This document shows, piece after piece, positions 10,081 through 45,602 of a stretch of 59,505 nucleotides of DNA (its first letter is position 1; each line of letters starts with the position of its first letter). Made by a program: the position numbers and the translations under genes. The notes beneath the pieces are model-generated. The model was given only the letters and a program-made list of their open reading frames with translations. It did no database searches and was not told the DNA's origin. This stretch comes from Crystallibacter permensis (GTDB lineage Bacteria; Actinomycetota; Actinomycetes; Actinomycetales; Micrococcaceae): positions 1-59,505 of the forward strand of contig NZ_JAODLR010000027.1 in assembly GCF_025960875.1 (NCBI RefSeq), given 5' to 3'.

Positions 10081-10226
10081 TGGCTGTGACAGGTTTAGAT
10101 GGCCCCGGTAAGACGGTTATTTCTGGCCCCAATTTGTGACTCGCCGGGCACTTGTGACGGTTATTTGTGGCCCCACCTTCAACGTTGGATCCATCAGTGG
10201 ATGGATGCGGCGGAAGGTTGGGCTGG

Positions 10227-11903
10227 ATGGAGTCGAGAGTGGAGTTGTTCGCACGGATCCGAAGGGACGCCCGGCTCGAGGGCCTATCGATTCGTGCGTT
10301 GGCTGTCCGGCACGAGGTTCACAGAAGAACGGTGAGGCAGGCTCTGGATTCAGCGGCCCCGCCGGAACGTAAACCGAGACAAGGTGTGTCCTGGAGGCTG
10401 GAGCTATTCAAGACTGCGATCGACGCGATGCTGGTCGAGGATACAACGGCACCGAGGAAGCAGCGTCACACTGCCCGCAGGATACTGGCCCGGCTCATTG
10501 AAGAGCACGGTGCGCAGGAGCTGTCGTATTCCACGGTGCGTGACTACGTCAGGGTCCGCCGGGCCCAGATCGATGTTGAGGCCGGCCGCCGGATGGAGGT
10601 ATTCGTTCCGCAGGAACACGCGCCGGGGGCCGAGGCCGAGGTGGACTTCGGCGAGGTCTGGGTGGTCCTGAACGGGGTGAAGACGAAGTGCCACATGTTC
10701 GTCTTCCGGTTGTCCCACTCGGGCAAGGCTATCCACCGGAATTACCCGACCCAGGCCCAGGAAGCCTTTTTGGAAGGCCACATCGAAGCGTTCAACAAGA
10801 TCGGCGGCGTGCCGGTCAAGCACATCCGCTATGACAATCTCACCAGCGCTGTCAAGGCTGTGGTGTTCGGCCAGGGCCGGCAACGCCAGGAAAACGACCG
10901 CTGGGTGTTGTTCCGTTCCCACTATGGTTTTGATTCTTTCTATTGCCAGCCAGGGATCGCAGGGGCGCACGAGAAAGGCGGTGTTGAGGGCGAGGTGGGC
11001 TGGTTCCGTCGCAACAGGCTCTCCCCAATGCCCCTCGCCGACTCTCTGGATGAGCTCAACGACCGGATCAGACGATGGGAGGCCCGGGACGACCGCCGGC
11101 GGATCAATGACAGGATCCGCACCATCGGCCAGGACTTCGAGGCCGAACGGCCGTTCCTGGCACCGTTGCCGGTGGAGGAGTTTGATCCTGGGCTGGTGCT
11201 GAATCCCAGGGTTGATAGGTCTTCGATGGTCACGGTGCGGATGGTGAAGTACTCCGTGCCTGCCCGGTTCATCGGCAGGAGGGTCCGGGTCTCGCTGCGG
11301 GCGTCAGAGGTTCTGGTCTTCGACGGCCGTACCGTTGCTGCCAGGCATCAGCGGATTGCCGCCAAACGCGGGCAGTCGGTGCAGCTGGACCACTATCTTG
11401 AGGTCCTCAAAACCAAACCCGGTGCCCTTCCCGGCTCTACCGCCCTGGCCCGTGCCCGCGAGTCGGGAGCGTTTACCAGCGCCCATGAGGCGTTCTGGGC
11501 TGCCTCCCGCCGGGTCAACGGAGATGCCGACGGCACCCGGGAACTCATCGATGTCCTGCTGCTCCACCGCTCGATGGACGCCGGAGACATCCAAGCGGGG
11601 ATCACCGCGGCACTGGGAGTGGGCGCCGTCAGCGCCGACGTCGTCGCTGTCGAAGCCCGCAGAAACGCGTCGGTTTCGTCCGGGGGTGGGGCCGGTTCGG
11701 ACCGTCATCGCGGTGCTCATGCTGAAGTGAAAGTGCACCGGGTTGTCAGTCTCACCCAGCGCCGGCTCATGGACCCCGATGCCGTCATCGCAGGGCTGCC
11801 TCCGGATGCCCGGCCCCTGCCGTCGGTGAGTGCTTATGACGAGCTGCTGGCCAGACGTACCGAACATCCTGCAGGATCCGCGTCGAAGGAGAACATCTCA
11901 TGA
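10227..11903 (+). CDS. istA: IS21-family transposase IstA
   Basis: A 558-residue DDE transposase. An N-terminal HTH (LSIRALAVRHEVHRRTVRQAL, about 18-38) is followed by the catalytic core with EVDFGEVW (first Asp, about 138), RYDNLTSAV (second Asp, about 200) and GGVEGEVGWFRRN (Glu, about 251). A beta-barrel-like C-terminal region with a YSVPARFIGRRVRV segment follows. ATG 10227 has GGAAGG 8 nt upstream; the frame is open back to 10167. The stop overlaps the istB start by 4 nt (ATGA), as usual for IS21. Confidence 0.92.
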   Translation: MESRVELFARIRRDARLEGLSIRALAVRHEVHRRTVRQALDSAAPPERKPRQGVSWRLELFKTAIDAMLVEDTTAPRKQRHTARRILARLIEEHGAQELSYSTVRDYVRVRRAQIDVEAGRRMEVFVPQEHAPGAEAEVDFGEVWVVLNGVKTKCHMFVFRLSHSGKAIHRNYPTQAQEAFLEGHIEAFNKIGGVPVKHIRYDNLTSAVKAVVFGQGRQRQENDRWVLFRSHYGFDSFYCQPGIAGAHEKGGVEGEVGWFRRNRLSPMPLADSLDELNDRIRRWEARDDRRRINDRIRTIGQDFEAERPFLAPLPVEEFDPGLVLNPRVDRSSMVTVRMVKYSVPARFIGRRVRVSLRASEVLVFDGRTVAARHQRIAAKRGQSVQLDHYLEVLKTKPGALPGSTALARARESGAFTSAHEAFWAASRRVNGDADGTRELIDVLLLHRSMDAGDIQAGITAALGVGAVSADVVAVEARRNASVSSGGGAGSDRHRGAHAEVKVHRVVSLTQRRLMDPDAVIAGLPPDARPLPSVSAYDELLARRTEHPAGSASKENIS

Positions 11904-12719
11904 GCCCCATCGCTCCGGCTACGACCATCACACCTACTTTGCGTCGGCGCCGCGGCCTGACCGAGCAGGCCGCGGTCGCGGCCGTGGACCAGGCATGCCG
12001 CCGGCTGCGCCTGCCCACCGTCCGCGCGGTCCTGGACGAAGCCCTGGCCATCGCGGGGAAGGAACAGCTGACCTACCAGGGCTTCCTGGCTGAGCTGTTG
12101 CTTGCCGAGTGTGATGACCGGGACCGGCGTTCATCGATCCGCCGCGTCAAGGCAGCCGGGTTTCCCCGGGACAAGTGGCTGGGCGATTTCGATTTCGACG
12201 CTAACCCGAACATCAAACCCCGCAACGATTCATACGCTGGCGACTGGTGACTGGATCCATAAAGGCGCGCCCCTGTGTCTGATCGGTGACTCGGGCACCG
12301 GCAAATCCCACCTGCTTATCGGGCTCGGCACCGCGGCCGCGGAGAAGGGTTACCGGGTCAAATACACCTTGGCCACGCGGCTGGTGAACGAACTCGTCGA
12401 GGCCGCCGATGAGAAGGTCCTTGCCAAAACCATCGCCCGTTACGGGCGCGTGGACCTGCTGTGTATTGATGAGCTGGGCTATATGGAGCTGGACCGCCGG
12501 GGCGCTGAACTCCTCTTCCAGGTCCTGACCGAGCGCGAGGAGAAGAACTCCATCGCCATCGCGAGCAACGAATCGTTCTCCGGTTGGACCAAGACCTTCA
12601 CCGATCCCAGGTTGTGCGCAGCGATCGTGGACCGCCTGACCTTCAACGGAGCCATCATCGAAACCGGCACGGACTCATACCGCCTCGCCCACACCAAGGC
12701 GCAGCAGGCCGCTGGATAG
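11900..12719 (+). pseudogene. istB: IS21-family helper ATPase IstB, frameshifted
   Basis: IstB is the AAA+ helper of IS21 transposition. The first frame (11900 onward) gives the N-terminus through DFDFDANPNIKP; the second frame (+1) continues ATIHTLATGDW, then Walker A GDSGTGKS at about 12286-12309, Walker B LLCIDELGY and the SNESFSGW sensor region. Removing one C from the CCCC run at 12218-12221 joins the two frames into the expected sequence. So there is either a real 1-nt insertion, a sequencing error or, less likely, a frameshift site. All other motifs are intact. Confidence 0.85.
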
Positions 12720-14660: not shown

Positions 14661-15668
14661 TCAGAGGAGGTGCGCCGCTTTTTGAACAGTCATCAGGCAA
14701 TCAGTCAGGCTGGGCTGCTCGCCGTAGATCAGGCCAGTCGCCAGTTCGTAGGATTTTTCCATCTCCAACAGGAGATCAGGCGTCGGCTGGAATGCAGGGC
14801 TGTGCGCGTACCCTCCATCCGGTCTGGGGGTAAAGGAAAATCCTGCCGCAGCGCTGTGGCCATCGATGTCTTCGATCAGCCCGGCGCTGCCGTCCGGCCC
14901 GATCCCAATCAGCAACTGCAGGACGTCCGCGTTGGACAGGAGTCGATGGATGTCGTAGAAGTGGCGCCCGCCCCTCATAAGAGCGCTATGCGCCGTGGCG
15001 TCGGGCATCCGTGAGACGGCGTCGTGCACGGCGGAGATCTTCTCGAGCAGGGTCCGCTCCGGCGACAAGACATTCACGGTGAAAGGCTCGAATTCCTGCC
15101 AGGCTGATTCGAGCTCCCCCAGCACTTCGACAGCATAATCGGCCACCATGGATCGGAGCCTGTGGACCTGGAGCGGGAAGTCGCCGCCTCGGGTGCCCAT
15201 CTCCAGCAGCACGCCCTCCGAAGCCACACCGGATTCGAAGGAACCGGGATAGTGGTAGCGCATGTGGCGCTTGACACCCTTGGTTGGCGCGCCGGAAACC
15301 CTACGGTCCTGGGGGTCGATTCCGAGGTGTTCGCCAACGTCATGGCACACTGCCTTGAGGATCTTGTCCTTGGCGCCGGGAGAGCAGTTCTCCGGGAAGA
15401 CGACCAGCAGATCAACGTCCTCCGAGAACCGCTCGATGAGGTTGTAGGCCCTGCTGAGACTGGTACCGCCCTTGAAGACGAAAGTCACCGGCACCAGCCG
15501 CTGCGACTTGTCGGCGATGACCCTGTCCTTGACGGCTGCACGGAGGACTTCGGTGACCCAAAAGTCCTTTTCCACGAATGCCTGCGGCAGCCTGAAGTGG
15601 AGAGCCGCCCCGTCTACCAGTGCTTCCAGATCATCTGGGCTATCCCGCAAGCGGTAGGCGTCGATCAC
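14661..15668 (-). CDS. abiEii: AbiEii-type toxin nucleotidyltransferase
   Basis: A 335-residue protein of the AbiEii/AbiGii family: KGGTSLSRAYNLIERFSEDVD at about 66-86 contains the GGTSLS...DxD nucleotidyltransferase signature. Members (including the MenT toxins) add nucleotides to tRNA 3' ends or otherwise block translation when a phage disturbs the antitoxin. Overlaps the antitoxin gene by 4 nt (ATGA). The stop codon (14661-14663) lies at the IS21 junction: its last base belongs to the target duplication and the other two to the element. The uninterrupted gene would end at the same residue with TAA. Length is full for the family. Confidence 0.88.
   Translation of the reverse strand: MIDAYRLRDSPDDLEALVDGAALHFRLPQAFVEKDFWVTEVLRAAVKDRVIADKSQRLVPVTFVFKGGTSLSRAYNLIERFSEDVDLLVVFPENCSPGAKDKILKAVCHDVGEHLGIDPQDRRVSGAPTKGVKRHMRYHYPGSFESGVASEGVLLEMGTRGGDFPLQVHRLRSMVADYAVEVLGELESAWQEFEPFTVNVLSPERTLLEKISAVHDAVSRMPDATAHSALMRGGRHFYDIHRLLSNADVLQLLIGIGPDGSAGLIEDIDGHSAAAGFSFTPRPDGGYAHSPAFQPTPDLLLEMEKSYELATGLIYGEQPSLTDCLMTVQKAAHLL
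14663..14669 (+). repeat. right target-site duplication of the IS21-type element
   Basis: Second copy of AGAGGAG, inside the last two Leu codons and the first stop-codon base of abiEii. Confidence 0.65.
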
Positions 15669-16261
15669 GCTGCGATGCTTTCGGCCAGATGCTCAAACCT
15701 GGTTCGCACTGCTGGCGAGCTTTCCCCCGGGACGGCCTCAGCTATCCGGCCCAGGCGGACTTCACCCTTATCAACCGCGTTCCTGGCAGCTGAAACGAGG
15801 GAATCCCACCCCGACTCGACGGTGGACGGTTCGCGCAGAACCTCCAGTAAAGCGATCTCGAGGAATGAGAGGCCTCGCCGGCGCCCGTTGTTACGCTTAT
15901 GCAGCTTCACGCCGTCAATGCCTTGTTTCAGCGGACCGGAAACGGCAAGCTCGACTTTAGCCGGCACCTGTGTGGTGAGTCCGAATGCCCGCGCGGCTGA
16001 ATACCCCGCAGGGCCAATACCCTCGACACCGAGCACTTTCAAGGCAACCTCCAGAACACCAGGCCGCGCCATGCCGTATCGGGTCTTCGGACCTTTGAAA
16101 TAGAGCCCCCGGGAACAATGCACAACGTCACCACGCTTGGCCGCCCGGGAAAGCGCATTGCGGGCGGCCGTGGGAGAACCAGGAAGATCCTTGGCCCTCA
16201 CGAAGGAGCGAACCGGGAGTTCCTCCAACACTTGGCCGGGCGTTTTCGTTGAAGTGCTCAT
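15665..16261 (-). CDS. abiEi: AbiEi-type antitoxin, DNA-binding
   Basis: A 198-residue AbiEi-family protein with an N-terminal winged-helix antitoxin domain (about 10-70; FVRAKDL...NALSRAAKRGDVVHCSRGLYF). The C-terminal domain has the typical AARAFGLTTQVPAKVELAVSG region (about 95-115). AbiEi represses its operon and counteracts AbiEii without direct inhibition (type IV). ATG 16261 lies 8 nt after a TACGAT -10-like hexamer, which suggests a leaderless transcript. The upstream extension of the frame to 16534 is not credible as part of this protein. Confidence 0.85.
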   Translation of the reverse strand: MSTSTKTPGQVLEELPVRSFVRAKDLPGSPTAARNALSRAAKRGDVVHCSRGLYFKGPKTRYGMARPGVLEVALKVLGVEGIGPAGYSAARAFGLTTQVPAKVELAVSGPLKQGIDGVKLHKRNNGRRRGLSFLEIALLEVLREPSTVESGWDSLVSAARNAVDKGEVRLGRIAEAVPGESSPAVRTRFEHLAESIAA

Positions 16262-16509
16262 GACACAAAATCGTACCGAGTTTGTCGCACGTCGGCAAGC
16301 AAGCCGCCGTTGTTTCGGCCGGGAAGAATGGCTTCTGGTGCGGCTAGGACTCGGGCACGATCGAAACCAGTAGTTCACTACCTTTGGACCGCAGAACGAG
16401 ACCATCAGCGGGCTGAGGACGCCGCCTTGGTGAATTCCCCCGCTTAGGCTGAAGACATCGGCCCCTGCTCGCTGCAGGCTTCGGCGCCATCTCCCCAGAA
16501 CTCCGACAC

Positions 16510-17166
16510 TCAGTGTTCCGTTTCGGCCTGACAATTCCTGGGTATCAGATCCACCAGCCGCCCGATCCGGTCTGGCGATATGTCACGCAGAATTCCAGGC
16601 AGAAGGATCTGCCACATATCCCTAATGCGTTCCATGACATCTTCCCTGCCCGTCCGCACATCCGACACCATTTGAACGCCGGTAAAGGAAGCCACCACGA
16701 ATTTCGCCAGGACGGACGGGGCAACGCCCTCCCTGATCGTTCCATCAGTTAAGGCTTGGGTGGCCAGATTTTCCATCACCCTGATCCAGTCTTCATAGGG
16801 CTCGTGAACCGAACGGCCGAAAGAAGAGGCCTCGAACGTGAGCCGGATGCCTGCCCTGACCACGGGATCATGGAGGAGCCTGTGACCGAACTCCCGGCAC
16901 ATAACAATCATGGCATCAAGAGGCGGACGCCCCTCCTGCAGGACCGTCAGTCCGTCGTGGACGACGAGCCGGTGCTGTTCCTCGATGACGGCCTTGGCGA
17001 GATCCTGTTTGGAAGCGAAATGGAAGTACAGGGCTGCCTTTGTCACCTGGGCACGCTCCGCTACCTGGATGAGGCTGGCGCGCCCGTAGCCGCTCTTTTC
17101 GAACACTTCCGCGGCCCCGGCGATAATCGTTTGCCGGGTTGCACATGAGCGATTCTGCACCGCCAC
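16510..17166 (-). CDS. TetR-family regulator (gamma-butyrolactone-receptor-like)
   Basis: A 218-residue protein with an N-terminal TetR HTH (TIIAGAAEVFEKSGYGRASLIQVAERAQVTKAALYFHFASKQDLA in sequence, about 10-55). The wording of the HTH (ASL...VTKxALYFHFxSK) is that of the ArpA/ScbR group, which bind gamma-butyrolactone signals in Streptomyces; the ligand here is unknown. GTG 17166 has GAGG 8 nt upstream; GTG 17160 is an alternative. The upstream part of the open frame is non-coding. It faces away from the PGPGW gene. Confidence 0.82.
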   Translation of the reverse strand: MAVQNRSCATRQTIIAGAAEVFEKSGYGRASLIQVAERAQVTKAALYFHFASKQDLAKAVIEEQHRLVVHDGLTVLQEGRPPLDAMIVMCREFGHRLLHDPVVRAGIRLTFEASSFGRSVHEPYEDWIRVMENLATQALTDGTIREGVAPSVLAKFVVASFTGVQMVSDVRTGREDVMERIRDMWQILLPGILRDISPDRIGRLVDLIPRNCQAETEH

Positions 17167-38863: not shown

Positions 38864-39628
38864 ATGGCGAACGGAACGTTCGGCACCGCCGCGGCCGGAC
38901 TCGACAACGCCCACTGGGCGAAGAACCAGGATGTCGCAGCGATCGGCGCCAAGGGCGAACTGCGCACCGCAGAGATCCTCGACAGCTTCGCCGGCCGGGC
39001 CGCGATCCTGCACGACCTGCGCATCCCGATCAAGGGCATCAGCGCCAACATCGACCACGTCGTCGTCAACGGCCGCCGGGTCCTGATCCTCGACTCGAAG
39101 GTGTGGGCGCCGGGCATCTACTGGTCGCTCGGCGGGGTCAACCGGCGGGGTCTGCAGCGGGTGGTCCACACGCAGAAAAAGACCATGGAAATGGCCCGGT
39201 CCAGCCTGGTCCGTTTCCTGGACCGCACGCGGTCCGAAGTGGTCCAGCCGAAGGTCGTTGTGTGGTCCAGCCGGACCACCCAGCCGGTCCGGACCATCCT
39301 CTTCCAGGTGCCCGGGGCAGACGTCCTCAAGGGCGAAAAACTCGCGCAAACACTGGGATCTTTCATCGGCAGGCAGCCGGCGGACCAACAGATCGTGGAC
39401 CGCCTCTCCGCGCTGCTGGTCCGGTCCAGGCGGACCGCTTTGGACCACCCGCGGACCACTTCGTGGACCACCCCGCGGACCGGTCCGGACCAGCGGGTGG
39501 ACCGGTCCGGTGGACCACTTCAGGACCACCCCGTGGACCACCCGATGTATTCCCGGTCGGGAATGGACGAGAAGGTCCGGGCCAGGCTGGACCGCATGCG
39601 CAACGACGACGATCCGTTCGCCGCCTGA
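38864..39628 (+). CDS. NERD-domain (nuclease-related) protein
   Basis: A 254-residue protein. NERD domain about 25-140: GAKGELRTAEILDSF (Glu), ILHDLRIPIKG, NIDHVVVNGRRVLILDSKVW (Asp and the DSK, equivalent to DxK of the PD-(D/E)xK fold). The second half is a Pro/Thr/Asp/Gly-rich, repetitive tail encoded by the GGWCC repeat tract, then a helix and the end DDDPFAA, shared in kind with the FtsK-like protein. Probably binds or cuts DNA in transfer or maintenance. 9 nt after the upstream stop. Confidence 0.8.
   Translation: MANGTFGTAAAGLDNAHWAKNQDVAAIGAKGELRTAEILDSFAGRAAILHDLRIPIKGISANIDHVVVNGRRVLILDSKVWAPGIYWSLGGVNRRGLQRVVHTQKKTMEMARSSLVRFLDRTRSEVVQPKVVVWSSRTTQPVRTILFQVPGADVLKGEKLAQTLGSFIGRQPADQQIVDRLSALLVRSRRTALDHPRTTSWTTPRTGPDQRVDRSGGPLQDHPVDHPMYSRSGMDEKVRARLDRMRNDDDPFAA
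39163..39540. repeat. cluster of 26 GGWCC repeats, candidate translocase recognition locus
   Basis: GGACC or GGTCC occurs 26 times in 378 bp, often inside GTGGACCAC, a near-perfect palindrome, or as GGACCGGTCC. About one to two copies would be expected at this GC. It lies inside the 3' half of the NERD gene, ends 128 bp before the FtsK-like start, and makes the encoded tail repetitive. Streptomyces TraB translocases recognise short repeats at clt loci beside traB, which this resembles in layout. Confidence 0.6.
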
Positions 39629-39668: not shown

Positions 39669-42600
39669 ATGGCTGCACGTGCCCAGGCACCGCAGAAACC
39701 GGTCACCCTGCCGCTGATTGCCCTCACCATCGCCGCGGCCGGAGCAGCCATCTGGTACGGCTACCCGGGTCTCGCCCTCGTGTGGGCCGGACTGACCGCC
39801 GCCGGCATCACCTACCCGCCGGCACAGTTCACGGGCAAAAAGGACAAGCGGGGCTACGCCACTCCGGCCGACGCGTCCGAACTGCCGGCGATGAACCGCT
39901 ACCGGTTCTGGGAAGACGTCAAATATAAGCTGATGCTGCCCAACGCGGACTGGCTGCCGGGCTGGCCGGTCCGCCTCTCCTGGCTCGCCGCGCTCTGGGC
40001 GGGAGCCGCCGCTTCCCTGATCCCCGTGACCGATGAGTACACGACCGGCTGGGGCCAGTGGGTAAACGCGGCTGCCGCCTACGTCATCGTCGCCCAGCTG
40101 ACCGCATCGCGCCGGCGCACCTGCGTCTACGGGGACGAAAGCCCCGGCGCCCGCACCGACACCCTCATCCGGCTCTTCAAGGAACGCACCGCGGCGATGG
40201 CAGGCATGGCCGGAGGCGGAGCAGCCCTCGGCATCTTCCTGGCCGTGGCAGCAACCATCTTCGAGCCCCTCTACGGCCGCATCGTGCCGATCCCGGTCTG
40301 GGCACTGTGGTTGCTGCTGCCCGTTGGCGGCATCCTCCTGGTCATCTCCCGCACCTGGATCGACGCAGCACTCGAGCACTGGAAGGTCGTGGTCGAAGCC
40401 CGCGCCGAATGGGAGAACCGCTGGCCGCAGCTGAAGATCGACCCGGCCCCTCGTCTGATTGACCGGCAGCAGGTCGGCCCCGCCACCGTGGACACCTTCG
40501 AAGCCCCGGCCTCCATGGGCGCCGGCCAGTTCTGGACCATGGACGCCAAAATCACCCCGACCGTCGGCGGTAACAGCCAGGTCTACGTCCTCGACGTCCC
40601 CGACTCGGATGCAAACGGCCAGCCCGTAGCCGGCTCCCGCAGCCCGTTGAAGTTCGACATCGCCGTCTGGCCGGCCGACCAGATCCCCTCCGTCACCGAC
40701 CCGACCGTCCCGAAAGAGCAGGTAGCCCTGTACGTCCGCTGCGCCCTGGCCAAGGCCTGCGACGCCGGAGCAATGGCCCCGCGCTACATCTTCGATGACA
40801 TCCACCTGCTCACCGAACCGGCCGCGCCGGCAGCCGAGCCTGTGAAGACATCCATCGAAGGCCAGATCGTGGCCTACGGGGAAGACCTGAACGCGGACGG
40901 CATCCCCGACGGCCAGCAGGGCAGCGAGGGCTCCCCCGCGGTGTGGGCGCTGACCTGGCACAACCACGACACCGCCGGGGCGGTCTCGTTCCGCACCAAC
41001 GCCTCGGGCGCCATGGCCGGCATCATCCAGGCCCAGGTCCTCGTCGACCACCGTGCCCGCGGCGGTTCCGGCGTCGCCTACTTCGGCGCCATCGGCGACC
41101 CGGCCGTCCGGTTCGACCCGAACAGCGGCGTCACCGAGGACGCCCTGCACGCCATCGCTGAGGAAGACAAATGGAACCGCCACTGGGGCGAAGTCGTCGG
41201 CTCCATGGTGAACCCGCCGATCGCCCAGATCCCCACCGGCGCGACCGAGACCCTGCGCAACGGAGTCGCTGTCCACCGGATGGCGTTCGTGACCCGGCAG
41301 GGCATGGACCCGATGGAGTTCATGAAGTACGAGAACAAGATGCCGACCGTGCTGAACGCGGCACCGTTCGTCACCCTGACCGGCTGGCCCGGAACCGGCC
41401 AGCGGCCCGGCGAACGGCACAGCCAGGCCCTCGCCGTGTACTGGTCCGACGAATCCGTTCCGGCCAACCCGGACACCCTGCCTGGCACCCGCGGCTCCGA
41501 AGCCGCCAAATGGGTGCTTTCTGGCCGGGTCAACCAGGCCTTCACCGCCGCCCGTCTGCCACGCCCGGAAATCGCCCGCGCCCTCTGCCTGACCAAGGAA
41601 GACTCCAGGAAGCACATCTGGAAGATCGACCTGCGCCTCTACGGGGGCGTCACTCTCGCCGAGGTCCGCGGTGCTGCGCAGAAGATCAAGCAGCACTGGG
41701 CATCCGAATGGCTGCGGGTCACCGCGGCCGCCGACGGCTGCACCATCTACGTCGGGGCCAACCCGTCCAAGGTGAAGCTGGCCAACCCGCGCTACGAGAA
41801 GGACCTGCACGCCCTCGACTGGGAGCAGGCCTTCCTGGACGCGAAGATCTCAGGTATCGGCGGGCTCATGCCCAAGCTGGTGAACGTCGACCACATGCCG
41901 ATGAACCCGCAGGTGAAGATCCTGACCTTCGACCTGACCGGAACCGGATTGGACTTCGCTGCCATGAAGGAAGTCCGGGCCCGCCTGGAATCCACGTCGG
42001 GCAATTCCTTCGTGGACATCCGGCGGGTGAAGAATGATGCCCAGAAGATCCAGATCCTCGCTTCCGAGGTGAACCCGATGCCTGAGCACGCTCCCTACGA
42101 TTACGAGGCGATCGACGGCTCGAAGGGCATCCCGTTCGCCACGGGCGTTGAGGGCGAACCGGTCGAGTTCAGCATCAAGGACCACATTCACCAGATGGTT
42201 GTGGGCGGCTCGGGGTCCGGTAAGTCCGTGATCCTGCAGGCATACATAACGGGGGCGCTGCGCCGCGGTTGCGACGTCTACATCGCTGACCCGACTAAGG
42301 GTGCAGCGGACTTCACCTTCGCCGAACCGTATGCAAAGGCCTTCTGCAAAGATCTGCTGGAGACCGGCGCCATGATGAAGGGGGTCTACGACGAGGTTAA
42401 ACGCCGCGTCAAGCTGAACAGCACTTACGGTGTCGGCTCGTACCGCGACCTGCCCGAGGACGTACGCCCGGCCCACATCGTTATCGTGCTGGACGAGTTC
42501 ACCTCGCTGATCGCCCCGGATGCGGTGGCCAAGCCCTCCGACGACCCGGAAGTCGAGGCCGAGCGGGAGATGGCGCTGGCTATCAATGCCTCCAAGGCCG

Positions 42601-45600
42601 AGGTCGGAGCCTTCACCGCCAAGATCGCCCGCGAGGCCCGCTCCGCCGGTGTCACGCTGCTGCTGGCTACCCAGAAGCTGGTGCAGAAGGATCTTGACCA
42701 AATGCCGGGCGGCGCAACACTCAAGGATTTGGACCTGGACACCCTCCTTCCGGTCCCCGTCTCAATGCGCTTCCCCGAGGGTTGGGCGCGGAACCGTGAC
42801 CTGCAGGTCGGTGACCTCCTGTTCGCCGTTGACGGCAGCACCACTCCTATCGCCGGGTTCTCCCCGGTTATCGACCAGGAGTCGACGTGGGAGGTCATCT
42901 TCGACGACGGCCAGATCGTGCGGACCGGTGCCGGCCACCAGTGGACGGCTTCGAACGAAAGCAGCAGAAAATGGTGGGGACGGGTCGCGCGTGATCACGA
43001 CGGAAACCCGATGTGGCAGCAGCGCGCAGCCACAGCACGCTACCTTTCTGAAACCCTCCCAGTCGGCACTTGGGCCGATTTCGGACAGGTGGCCGAGATG
43101 GCCGGCCTCGACGAAAAGTACGTCCGCATGCTGTCAACGAAGTTCGGAACACCGGTCATGACCGACACGCCGTTCGGTCTGCAGGATGCCGACTGGGGCC
43201 TCCGTCGTGGGCTGCCGGGACGGCAGTACCTAGTGGATTCCACCTGTCTTGCCACGGTGGCTAGGGACAACAAGGTCAACTCCACTACAAACCTCGAACC
43301 CTTCGTTGGTACCCGGCTGACTGCACGCCAGATGCTTCAAGCGGCCACAGGCTCGAAACCGACTTCAACGCAGGCAGGAAACCTGGTTACGCGGCTTGGC
43401 GAAGCCGGAGTCCCGTGGGAGCAGGGCGAGCACGACCGGCTGGTGATCGACTCCGGGGAATTCTTCACCACGATGGCCGACCATTCTGCCCGCATGGCGC
43501 TCACCGGTGCGGACGGCGACGCTCCGTCATTGGAAAAGGTCGTAACCACCGAACAGATGGCGGCGACCCTCAAGTGCCGCAGGGGAGGCTCGAATTGGGC
43601 TGTTCGCCTCAGCGAACCCGCCGAACTGGCGCACGCCGACCTCCCGGTGGACCCTTACGTCCTGGGCGCGTGGCTGGGCGATGGGTCCACCGGAACTGGA
43701 ATCATCTGCGCAGGGAAAACGGAAGCTTGCACCGGAGCGGACGGCATCACCGATCAGGAGCACATGATCAGGCAGCTCACGGCCGCGGGATATGAGGGAC
43801 ACGCTCTGAAGTGCTCGGACCGCCTCATTGGAACGTACGGCCTTAGGGTCGCCCTCCGTGGCCTCGGGGTGCTCTATCGCAAGCACATCCCAGCCGACTA
43901 CCTGAGGGCTTCGGCGGCTCAGCGGCTCGCGTTGCTGCAGGGACTCATGGACACGGACGGCACGGTCGGGAAGGGCAAGCCCATTTTCACGCAAAAGAAC
44001 CGCGGGCTGGCACTACAGGTCCTGGAGCTCGCGCGATCCTTGGGCTTCAAGGCCACGGAGGCCCGGTATGACTCTTGGTACAAAGATGATGACGGGGAGC
44101 GGGTGATGAAAGGGAAGGTCACAGCCGTCGCTTTCCACGCCGGCGTCGAGGTGTTCCGGCTGCCTCGAAAAGCGGTGAAGCAGAAGCTAAATGCCAGCAG
44201 GCGGCTCCGGTACGTAGTTGACGTCCGTCGGGTAGATCCCGTCCAGACTAGGTGCATCGCGGTGGAGCACCCATCGCACCTGTTTCTGGTCGAGGGTTTC
44301 ATCCCGACGCACAACACCAACCTGTCACGGCTGATCGCTGGCAAGTCCACGCCGGGTGAGCGCATGTCCGCGCTGAAGGATGCGATGAATGCCCCGTCGC
44401 TGGGGGATTCGATTCCGCCGGGACGCGCAATCTTCGAGCCAGTCACCTCTGGCCCTGTGCTTATCCAGTGCTGGTACGACAAGAGAGAGCAGGAGGCACT
44501 GGCCGAGTACGTTGGACTCCATCGGAGCCCACTGGCTGAAGACGAGAAGCTCGATCTGAACGCCTACATGCGCAACAGGCCACGTCGGGACGATCCCGGC
44601 CAGCCGGAGGAGCCGGCGGTCATCGACTTGGGCGAGCTCGAACTGGATCTGGATGACCTGGAGCTCGACTGGTCGGATGAGGAAGCCGAAGACGCCGTGG
44701 AGGCCTCCGGCTCGCAGGCGCCCGAAACGGATGCCGGCCCGACTGAGCCGGCGGCCCAGGACCAGCCTGCGGAACCGCTGGAAGCGGACGAGGAAGCAGT
44801 GCCCGCGCCAGTCCGGGACGACCGGTACACGGCAGCGCTCCTTGACGTCGACGGGGTGATCATGCCGTTCGTCCACCGTGAGGGCATGATCTCGCTCAAT
44901 GTCCCCGGCCACGGCACCCTCTCCTACCGTCCGGAGGTGGTCCGCACCCTCTCCGCGCTGCCGGTCCGCCAGGCGTGGCTGACCAGCTGGGGCGAAGACG
45001 CTCCCCGGCATCTCGGCCCGATGTTCCCCTACGCCGGCGAGGTGCTGGATGCCGCGACCGAGGACTACGGCTGGTGGAAGATCGATGCCCTGGCCGCGTG
45101 GCTGGATGCCAACCCGCAGGTGAAGCGGGTGGTGTGGGCGGACGACGAGCTCGCCGGCGAAGACTATGCCCTGGGCCTGCCCTTCCGGGAACTGGCCGGA
45201 GACATGCTCGCAGACCGCGGGGTTGAGGCATTGCTCGTGGTCCCGGATGCGAATGTCGGTTTGACGGCTGCCGACCTGCAGCAGATTGCCGCCTTCGCCG
45301 ACGGTGAGGCCACGATTGCAGTGCCCGTTTCAGCTGCCCCAGCCGTAGTGGAAGAGCCCATAGCAGTCCCGGAGCCGCTGCCATGGGAAGAAGAGGCCCC
45401 TGTCGCGGACCCTTGGAATGAGCCCGCGGCCGCACCCTCCCTGTTCCAAGATGCGGCCCCATCCCGGCCTGCACGCCCGGACGACGATGATCCATTCGCC
45501 TGGGATGGCCCGGCTCGGCGGACTGCCACCGACGAGGACCCCTTCGCCATGGACATTCCGCTCCGGCGCAGCCGCGTCCCGGACGACGACCCGTTCGCCT

Positions 45601-45602
45601 GA
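39669..45602 (+). CDS. FtsK/TraB-like DNA translocase with intein and C-terminal HAD domain
   Basis: The largest gene of the window, 1977 residues before splicing (1447 after). N-terminal membrane part about 1-230 with five or six TM helices; long soluble region; ATPase with Walker A GGSGSGKSV (about 846-854), Walker B HIVIVLDEF (about 936-944), ATQKL and, after the intein, TNLSRLIAGK. The intein covers residues 1020-1549. A Glu/Asp linker follows, then a HAD domain about 1718-1870 (LDVDGV, LTSW, WADDE). The tail repeats DDDPFA three times. ATG 39669 follows AAGGAAGG. Likely the motor of conjugal transfer of this element; no relaxase seen. Confidence 0.85.
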   Translation: MAARAQAPQKPVTLPLIALTIAAAGAAIWYGYPGLALVWAGLTAAGITYPPAQFTGKKDKRGYATPADASELPAMNRYRFWEDVKYKLMLPNADWLPGWPVRLSWLAALWAGAAASLIPVTDEYTTGWGQWVNAAAAYVIVAQLTASRRRTCVYGDESPGARTDTLIRLFKERTAAMAGMAGGGAALGIFLAVAATIFEPLYGRIVPIPVWALWLLLPVGGILLVISRTWIDAALEHWKVVVEARAEWENRWPQLKIDPAPRLIDRQQVGPATVDTFEAPASMGAGQFWTMDAKITPTVGGNSQVYVLDVPDSDANGQPVAGSRSPLKFDIAVWPADQIPSVTDPTVPKEQVALYVRCALAKACDAGAMAPRYIFDDIHLLTEPAAPAAEPVKTSIEGQIVAYGEDLNADGIPDGQQGSEGSPAVWALTWHNHDTAGAVSFRTNASGAMAGIIQAQVLVDHRARGGSGVAYFGAIGDPAVRFDPNSGVTEDALHAIAEEDKWNRHWGEVVGSMVNPPIAQIPTGATETLRNGVAVHRMAFVTRQGMDPMEFMKYENKMPTVLNAAPFVTLTGWPGTGQRPGERHSQALAVYWSDESVPANPDTLPGTRGSEAAKWVLSGRVNQAFTAARLPRPEIARALCLTKEDSRKHIWKIDLRLYGGVTLAEVRGAAQKIKQHWASEWLRVTAAADGCTIYVGANPSKVKLANPRYEKDLHALDWEQAFLDAKISGIGGLMPKLVNVDHMPMNPQVKILTFDLTGTGLDFAAMKEVRARLESTSGNSFVDIRRVKNDAQKIQILASEVNPMPEHAPYDYEAIDGSKGIPFATGVEGEPVEFSIKDHIHQMVVGGSGSGKSVILQAYITGALRRGCDVYIADPTKGAADFTFAEPYAKAFCKDLLETGAMMKGVYDEVKRRVKLNSTYGVGSYRDLPEDVRPAHIVIVLDEFTSLIAPDAVAKPSDDPEVEAEREMALAINASKAEVGAFTAKIAREARSAGVTLLLATQKLVQKDLDQMPGGATLKDLDLDTLLPVPVSMRFPEGWARNRDLQVGDLLFAVDGSTTPIAGFSPVIDQESTWEVIFDDGQIVRTGAGHQWTASNESSRKWWGRVARDHDGNPMWQQRAATARYLSETLPVGTWADFGQVAEMAGLDEKYVRMLSTKFGTPVMTDTPFGLQDADWGLRRGLPGRQYLVDSTCLATVARDNKVNSTTNLEPFVGTRLTARQMLQAATGSKPTSTQAGNLVTRLGEAGVPWEQGEHDRLVIDSGEFFTTMADHSARMALTGADGDAPSLEKVVTTEQMAATLKCRRGGSNWAVRLSEPAELAHADLPVDPYVLGAWLGDGSTGTGIICAGKTEACTGADGITDQEHMIRQLTAAGYEGHALKCSDRLIGTYGLRVALRGLGVLYRKHIPADYLRASAAQRLALLQGLMDTDGTVGKGKPIFTQKNRGLALQVLELARSLGFKATEARYDSWYKDDDGERVMKGKVTAVAFHAGVEVFRLPRKAVKQKLNASRRLRYVVDVRRVDPVQTRCIAVEHPSHLFLVEGFIPTHNTNLSRLIAGKSTPGERMSALKDAMNAPSLGDSIPPGRAIFEPVTSGPVLIQCWYDKREQEALAEYVGLHRSPLAEDEKLDLNAYMRNRPRRDDPGQPEEPAVIDLGELELDLDDLELDWSDEEAEDAVEASGSQAPETDAGPTEPAAQDQPAEPLEADEEAVPAPVRDDRYTAALLDVDGVIMPFVHREGMISLNVPGHGTLSYRPEVVRTLSALPVRQAWLTSWGEDAPRHLGPMFPYAGEVLDAATEDYGWWKIDALAAWLDANPQVKRVVWADDELAGEDYALGLPFRELAGDMLADRGVEALLVVPDANVGLTAADLQQIAAFADGEATIAVPVSAAPAVVEEPIAVPEPLPWEEEAPVADPWNEPAAAPSLFQDAAPSRPARPDDDDPFAWDGPARRTATDEDPFAMDIPLRRSRVPDDDPFA
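42726..44315 (+). other. class 3 intein with LAGLIDADG homing endonuclease in the FtsK-like gene
   Basis: A 530-residue insertion between Lys1019 and Thr1550, in frame. It starts DLDLDT rather than with Cys or Ser, the class 3 feature. Block B has GAGHQWTAS (Trp). LAGLIDADG motifs LGAWLGDGS (about residue 1332) and LLQGLMDTDG (about 1423) mark the homing endonuclease. Block F has RCIAVEHPSHLFLVEGFI (Cys), and the end is PTHN followed by Thr. The W, C and T of the class 3 set are all present. Removal gives GGATLK-TNLSRLIAGK, the normal FtsK sequence. Confidence 0.82.

Follow-up and report, generated by a model that had tools for sequence, protein, structure and literature searches.

Class 3 inteins are defined by a Trp at position B:12, a Cys at F:4 and a Thr at G:5 (excerpts of PMC3196547 and PMC5222942), and the class 3 hosts named in excerpts of PMC3196547, PMC5222942, PMC7664689, PMC5050341 and PMC6195587 are DnaB, Snf2, terminase and IcmO. 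The closest described systems are the DnaB mini-inteins of Mycobacterium smegmatis (DnaBi1, 6bs8), which is located between GVGK and STLGL of DnaB (excerpt of PMC5222942), and Mycobacterium chimaera (DnaB1, 6rix and 6riy). The Burkholderia vietnamiensis IcmO intein is also class 3 and also in a plasmid-borne gene, but is a 142-aa mini-intein followed by Cys+1, and its flanks, ARSLGF and CITFA, include no Walker A motif (excerpt of PMC5222942). Mycobacteriophage terminase inteins occupy several sites in one ATPase domain, Walker A among them (excerpt of PMC5050341). They share a related endonuclease half with the intein described here, but the host is a terminase and the identity is 38.6-39.0 % over 49 % of the intein among the matches listed.

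The window analysed here, a stretch of 59 505 nt, is the whole of contig C27 of Crystallibacter permensis, and its status as a plasmid is putative. The intein found in it has the W-C-T triad, the block B His, the THN end and the Hint fold of the DnaB mini-inteins and, like them, lacks an N-terminal Cys. However, it is 530 aa long, includes an endonuclease and an additional insert, is followed by Thr+1, and differs in host and in site. The literature searched on inteins and FtsK (including excerpts of PMC8987985 and PMC11219805) yielded no intein in an FtsK-type protein, though absence there is no proof. The features of the locus are listed in Table 1.

Table 1. Features of the translocase gene and its intein
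Feature	Position	Strand	Evidence
Gene for the intein-bearing precursor of a TcpA/FtsK-like DNA translocase; HAD-like domain on the C-terminal side, DDDPFA tail	39669..45602	+	PF01580; PF18143 below cut-off; solved relatives; start by homologues
Walker A (GGSGSGKS) of the translocase, unbroken in the window; site a, occupied by related inteins in other hosts	42204..42227	+	
Class 3 intein of 530 aa, splitting LK-TNLSR between its Lys and Thr (site b)	42726..44315	+	Translation; homologue alignment; signature
N-terminal splicing part, blocks A and B, residues 1-77	42726..42956	+	Profile/fold match to class 3 DnaB inteins
His71 (B:10) and Trp73 (B:12)	42936..42944	+	Same residue in 44/44 rows
Insert of about 190 aa, following the N-terminal splicing part and preceding the endonuclease; made of two winged-helix-like units	42957..43535	+	AlphaFold models; secondary-structure reading
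LAGLIDADG homing endonuclease	43536..44171	+	PF14528, E 4.7e-7; PI-SceI top fold match
Asp319, first LAGLIDADG aspartate, motif GAWLGDG	43680..43682	+	Translation; alignment of relatives
Asp411, second LAGLIDADG aspartate, motif GLMDTDG	43956..43958	+	Translation; alignment of relatives
C-terminal splicing part, blocks F and G, residues 483-530	44172..44315	+	Profile match; TIGR01443 below cut-off
Cys510 (F:4), nucleophile of the first step in class 3 splicing	44253..44255	+	Translation; alignment of relatives
Thr528 (G:5), His529, Asn530 and Thr+1	44307..44318	+	Translation; alignment of relatives

Boundaries, class and predicted fold of the intein

The precursor frame is open over 1977 codons from the ATG at 39669, which is the start position common to the homologues (MAARAQAPQKPVT). 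A TTG at 39258 was considered as the gene start and was dropped, as the homologues point to the ATG. The intein itself is free of stops, starts with DLDLDT, ends with PTHN and is flanked by GGATLK and TNLSRLIAGK. All five aligned intein-free plasmid homologues have no residue between LK and the next [VT]N, and DLK-VNLSR is read in Paenarthrobacter YJN-5, Pseudarthrobacter A6 and BIM B-2242, Arthrobacter zg-Y1110 and Glaciihabitans. Of five further genome loci in the alignment, four (L028, L029, L031 and L032) are also uninterrupted at site b. The row of the fifth, L030, represents the wrong ORF and was disregarded; a different locus from that genome, L018, has an empty site and reads DLK-SNMGR. 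Because the intein-free homologues are unbroken exactly at the junction, both boundaries are right. An earlier note, made from the sequence, had called them well defined and had set this alignment beforehand as the check; with the alignment run, the insertion point is confirmed.

The first residue is Asp, its place fixed by the empty homologues, and not Cys, Ser or Thr. The class 3 residues are His71, Trp73, Cys510, Thr528, His529-Asn530 and Thr+1; the Trp, Cys and Thr named in the earlier note are W73, C510 and T528, and the first position that it described as lacking Cys or Ser is Asp1. Counting the window intein, His71, Trp73, Cys510, His529 and Asn530 are kept in 44/44 relatives and Thr528 in 43/44, the sole exception being a Ser in L163. 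At position 1, Cys or Thr occurs in none and Ser in two of 32 rows; the other 12, namely L047 and 11 viral contigs, open where the match starts and not at a mapped boundary. There is one departure. Mycobacterial class 3 inteins carry an Asp in block B (excerpt of PMC6195587), and this is replaced by Gly in the window intein and in the inteins of Arthrobacter sp. SF27 and Curtobacterium.

A profile of 12 inteins matched the solved class 3 DnaB inteins 6bs8, 6rix and 6riy with E values from 6.6e-32 (6bs8) to 7.8e-31, gave weaker matches (1.4e-16 and 2.4e-12) to gp41-1, which is not class 3, and matched PI-SceI in the endonuclease part (E 2.1e-13). What Pfam and NCBIfam recognise in the window intein is limited to the endonuclease and a C-terminal motif that scores below threshold (TIGR01443, 11.9 bits, cut-off 15.6). 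Pfam PF14890 did not report it. The only match of PF14890 in this genome is a different intein, in a protein on contig C1 (L001) read as DnaB. This protein has two inteins: the one at Walker A is a mini-intein of class 3 type, and the second begins with Cys and ends with HN-Ser.

The AlphaFold model of the whole intein, made from a 20-sequence alignment, has a mean pLDDT of 89.3 and a pTM of 0.71. Foldseek placed PI-SceI first (1vde, E 9.2e-15), with I-DmoI and the class 3 DnaB inteins 6riy, 6rix and 6bs8 (1.7-1.8 Å over 75-76 columns) at lower ranks. PI-SceI, the yeast VMA intein, has the same combination of a Hint domain and a LAGLIDADG endonuclease, but the host is unrelated and the identity only 11-13 %. 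It is a class 1 intein with an N-terminal Cys, and has an extra DNA-binding region. The two LAGLIDADG motifs claimed in the earlier note are GAWLGDG (D319) and GLMDTDG (D411).

In the model, residues 78-270 form an extra domain of two strand-helix-helix-strand-strand units. Relatives at both insertion sites have this domain too, though at low identity; in L044 it is partial, and Curtobacterium lacks it. The insert matched no Pfam family. Alone in a PDB fold search, it gave nothing under E 0.001, the weak matches including winged-helix regulators, and the winged-helix label is therefore a reading of secondary structure. On the model, the insert is presumed to be a DNA-recognition domain of winged-helix type, and no description of such a 190-aa insert was found in the literature searched on inteins. 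An origin of the insert by internal duplication was considered and rejected (score 20 against a shuffled mean of 23).

The signature residues, the best profile match and the fold all agree on a class 3 intein with a LAGLIDADG endonuclease, as had been proposed. Judged from its sequence, it is a genuine and intact-looking intein, a fresh case of a known class. If it behaves as its class does, Cys510 would attack the Lys-Asp1 bond after translation, the N-extein would then pass to Thr+1, Asn530 would cyclise and the exteins would be joined as GGATLK-TNLSR. Once free, the intein would be expected to cleave site b in alleles that lack it and to be copied in by repair, with the insert probably aiding DNA binding.

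The host translocase and its neighbourhood

The translocase matched PF01580 (E 1.4e-7, over the cut-off), and so includes an FtsK-type ATPase core with Walker A. The closest solved relatives of a profile of this core, made from five intein-free homologues, are the coupling proteins 6o1z, 6o1x and 6o1w (E 3.1e-14 for 6o1z, to 7.8e-14), which we take to be TcpA of plasmid pCW3. FtsK (E 1.7e-8) and TrwB (E 1.6e-5) are next. As the nearest solved relatives are coupling proteins, the designation 'conjugative-type' is reasonable. The earlier note had referred to a conjugative-type FtsK/TraB translocase; the type, an FtsK-like translocase of conjugation, is supported, but the label TraB is weak, as the NCBIfam model for plasmid TraB (NF041214) gave 30.1 bits against a cut-off of 800. 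To our knowledge, the three coupling proteins have no intein. The extein here also differs from them in its long N-terminal part, its HAD-like domain and its DDDPFA tail.

The HAD-like domain (44838-45275; PF18143, E 4.3e-4, under the Pfam cut-off) is C-terminal of the coupling-type ATPase. Its D[VI]DG motif is present in all five of the aligned plasmid homologues from outside Curtobacterium and absent in two from Curtobacterium. The acidic-aromatic end, DDDPFA(A), is common to the translocase, whose final 60 residues (45420-45602) contain it three times, and the NERD-domain protein encoded upstream (motif at 39590-39628), and SF27 carries it on both proteins. Translocases with similar ends were seen in Paenarthrobacter YJN-5, Pseudarthrobacter A6 and BIM (DPFG), Arthrobacter zg-Y1110 and genome G115; the NERD proteins are less regular. 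The Curtobacterium translocases end in FDDLF or YDELFDA. The shared tail recalls the docking tail of SSB proteins.

In the alignment with these solved proteins, the intein is inserted in the ATPase core, after the ATQ segment and adjoining IKNNVPVR, where an arginine of FtsK presumably acts on the neighbouring active site. It can fairly be inferred that the unspliced precursor would be inactive as an ATPase. This position would suit a domesticated switch, in which conditional splicing, for example redox control via Cys510, times the activity of the translocase and so controls plasmid transfer. In M. smegmatis, H2O2 inhibits the class 3 DnaB intein by way of a disulfide that involves the catalytic cysteine (excerpt of PMC6195587), and the window intein has five cysteines besides Cys510, a further point for such a switch. 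However, none of these five is in the splicing parts, and we return to this reading below with the distribution of the intein.

The translocase homologues fetched are on plasmids of 149-608 kb. In all seven annotated stretches they are directly behind a NERD-domain gene or one small gene away from it, and four of the seven also have, ending 2.6-3.8 kb upstream, a gene annotated as a type IV conjugative DNA transfer protein. One of these upstream genes (L002) scored 17.6 bits against TraG-D_C (cut-off 22). PLSDB typing recorded 17/17 matching plasmids as non-mobilizable. Mechanical listing found 131 ORFs of 120 aa or more in the window, and a scan of 33 window ORFs other than the translocase revealed no recognisable transfer gene. 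Elsewhere in the genome, a gene on contig C3 (L201) shares 66 % identity with the conjugative-transfer-type neighbour of the pYJN5-1 translocase gene and has one in-frame TGA, and on contig 10 a TraG-like gene (TraG-D_C, E 7.7e-17) adjoins an AAA_10 match. The window also contains an IS21-type istA/istB pair (10167-12719) and a possible toxin-antitoxin pair (14661-16534), made up of an AbiEii-type nucleotidyltransferase and a neighbouring ORF that matches DUF6088 weakly.

Divergence, selection and the distribution of alleles

Arthrobacter sp. SF27 has a 530-aa intein at the same site, 81 % identical to that in the window and without indels. Nei-Gojobori estimates for this pair give dN 0.123, dS 1.49 and a ratio of 0.08 for the intein, and dN 0.016, dS 0.25 and a ratio of 0.07 for the N-extein; dN/dS is also low in the first 120 codons of the C-extein. 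By part, dN/dS is 0.095 for Hint-N, 0.10 for the insert and 0.06 for the endonuclease (dS 2.5), and Hint-C is saturated and gave no ratio. As dS for the intein is near saturation (above 1), the intein ratios are rough, and as rough estimates they indicate purifying selection on the intein, endonuclease included.

The dS for the intein is about six times that for the N-extein, and the two therefore have different histories. Within the N-extein, dS is 0.14-0.17 over the first 510 codons, 0.23 over the next 170 and 0.43-0.46 over the last 340, and in the C-extein it is 0.66 in the first 60 codons and 0.88 in the second 60. The gene is therefore a mosaic, with greater divergence in the intein and in the stretch that follows it. 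This mosaic may have arisen either by homing with co-conversion or by ordinary recombination. The third-position GC content is 0.76 for the intein, 0.71 for the insert, 0.87 for the N-extein and 0.78 for the C-extein; the intein and the C-extein thus have similar values, and the composition does not mark the intein as foreign.

The N-extein was found at E 1e-20 or better in 11 of 395 family genomes, two with the intein (the window genome and G122) and nine without. In those nine, the residue after the empty site is Val (three), Thr (three), Ser (one) or Glu (two, the distant homologues L021 and L022, which were read by eye). The genome set and the plasmid set overlap, as two of the nine, G322 and G317, match by length two of the listed plasmid records. 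Site b is filled in the window, SF27, Agromyces humi and three Curtobacterium plasmids. Thr follows it in all six of these alleles, and can serve as the +1 nucleophile. The lineage is spread over several actinobacteria, and in Curtobacterium, where it is plasmid-borne, the endonuclease residues are gone: all three inteins there lack both aspartates (Asp319 replaced by Ser or Gly, Asp411 by Ala) and the insert, with the splicing residues kept. The Leifsonia intein, located at site a, also lacks both aspartates and keeps the splicing residues. Full, empty and endonuclease-dead alleles side by side across species are the pattern of a homing cycle. At the other end of the record of Curtobacterium pusillum pCPAA3, there is a second translocase-intein copy (L048) with a discontinuous frame.

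More widely, a single scan of the genome contigs found 11 intein loci, two of them on one plasmid, and the profile searches matched 50/396 genomes of the order and 41/395 of the family. Of 58 loci inspected, 44 were read as DnaB from their flanks; the labels DnaB, VirB4-like and AAA used here for hosts come from the flanks or from record annotation, not from family searches. The first scan of viral contigs with the window intein as query found no relative.

These data bear on two other readings of the locus. The first is that the intein is decaying or dead, with splicing or homing lost, or that the translocase gene is a pseudogene. The decayed endonucleases of relatives (3/3 in Curtobacterium, and Leifsonia) are in line with this, as is the in-frame TGA in a TraG-like gene of the same genome that is homologous to a neighbour gene in Paenarthrobacter. 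However, the precursor frame is open throughout, every catalytic residue is intact, and dN/dS relative to SF27 is low in the N-extein, in the first 120 codons of the C-extein and in three of the four intein parts (the fourth being saturated), making this reading very improbable. The second is the switch. The intein is absent from 9 of the 11 family genomes that have the gene, its history differs from that of the N-extein, and its endonuclease, intact and under selection, speaks for a homing parasite, which accounts for the data without any control of transfer. The suggestion of the earlier note that splicing could control transfer is thus not supported, and we regard a switch as unlikely, though slightly less so than a dead intein. 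The sporadic distribution and the conserved endonuclease favour a mobile parasite, and this is very probably a functional-looking class 3 intein of homing origin in a TcpA/FtsK-like translocase gene.

Two insertion sites in one translocase family

As a rule, inteins are tied to one site, because their endonuclease recognises that site. Inteins related to the one in the window were found 167 codons upstream of site b, at the Walker A lysine (site a), in four hosts filed as FtsK-like: Xylanimicrobium (L042), Arthrobacter H14 (L044), Leifsonia Leaf264 (L049) and genome G646 (L132). Two more are at the Walker A-like lysine of other proteins, in G163 (L162) and G115 (L163), for which Pfam gave endonuclease matches only. 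L049 and L132 clearly belong to the translocase family of the window, as an empty site b is readable in both. L042 and L044 are too divergent, and site b was recognised in neither. Aligned rows show that the site a relatives share with the site b inteins a longer block A, PVPVSxxFPxGWA or near it.

The intein tree was made from 44 rows and leaves out class 1 and class 2 inteins. One clade of 12 rows (96/84) contains the six site b inteins and six at Walker A-like lysines, with the site b rows forming one side of a weakly supported branch (42/90). The next group outside it (L043, the first intein of L034, L138 and L035) is also at Walker A. Class 3-type inteins were also seen at Walker A of TraD, of an AAA ATPase (two in one protein) and of VirB4-like proteins (L033 on pKAZ5, L034, L035, L043 and L138), the hosts being enterobacterial-type, Streptomyces and Bifidobacterium plasmids and two other actinobacteria. 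The extein tree has long branches and a warning of false joins, but it pairs Agromyces, with the intein at site b, and Leifsonia, with it at site a, as sisters (100/99); these sister exteins hold related inteins at different sites.

As its close kin are at Walker A, the intein lineage occupies two places in one protein family. The simplest account of the sequences is a site shift within the translocase family, which could have gone from a to b or the reverse, and we give this account roughly even chances. An origin from the Walker A relatives in the same protein family, with settlement 167 codons downstream, would be the most likely course, and is held with the same evenly balanced confidence. 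Alternatively, sites a and b may have been invaded separately from outside, with no move within the family. Neither a forced clade of the four FtsK Walker A rows (p-AU 0.096) nor one of those four with L162 and L163 (p-AU 0.112) was rejected, which leaves room for separate invasions. The DNA around the two sites is also not clearly alike, with chance-level likeness in 4/5 genes and a slight one in the fifth (20/42, p 0.015, five tests). The placement of ten inteins filed as FtsK-like, from both sites, in one clade with two ATPase inteins, and the longer block A shared by the aligned members, argue against separate invasions, which we consider rather unlikely. The full form of the site-shift account, that one class 3 lineage moved from the Walker A lysine to LK-TN and is still a live homing element with its winged-helix-like insert, is tentative and somewhat short of an even chance.

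With this intein, class 3 hosts come to include ATPases of the plasmid-transfer type, besides DnaB, Snf2, terminase and IcmO. For specialists, the part of most value is the second insertion site within one protein family. A lineage at two sites, with empty, full and endonuclease-dead alleles among actinobacteria, is a natural series for the change of target and the decay of an intein.
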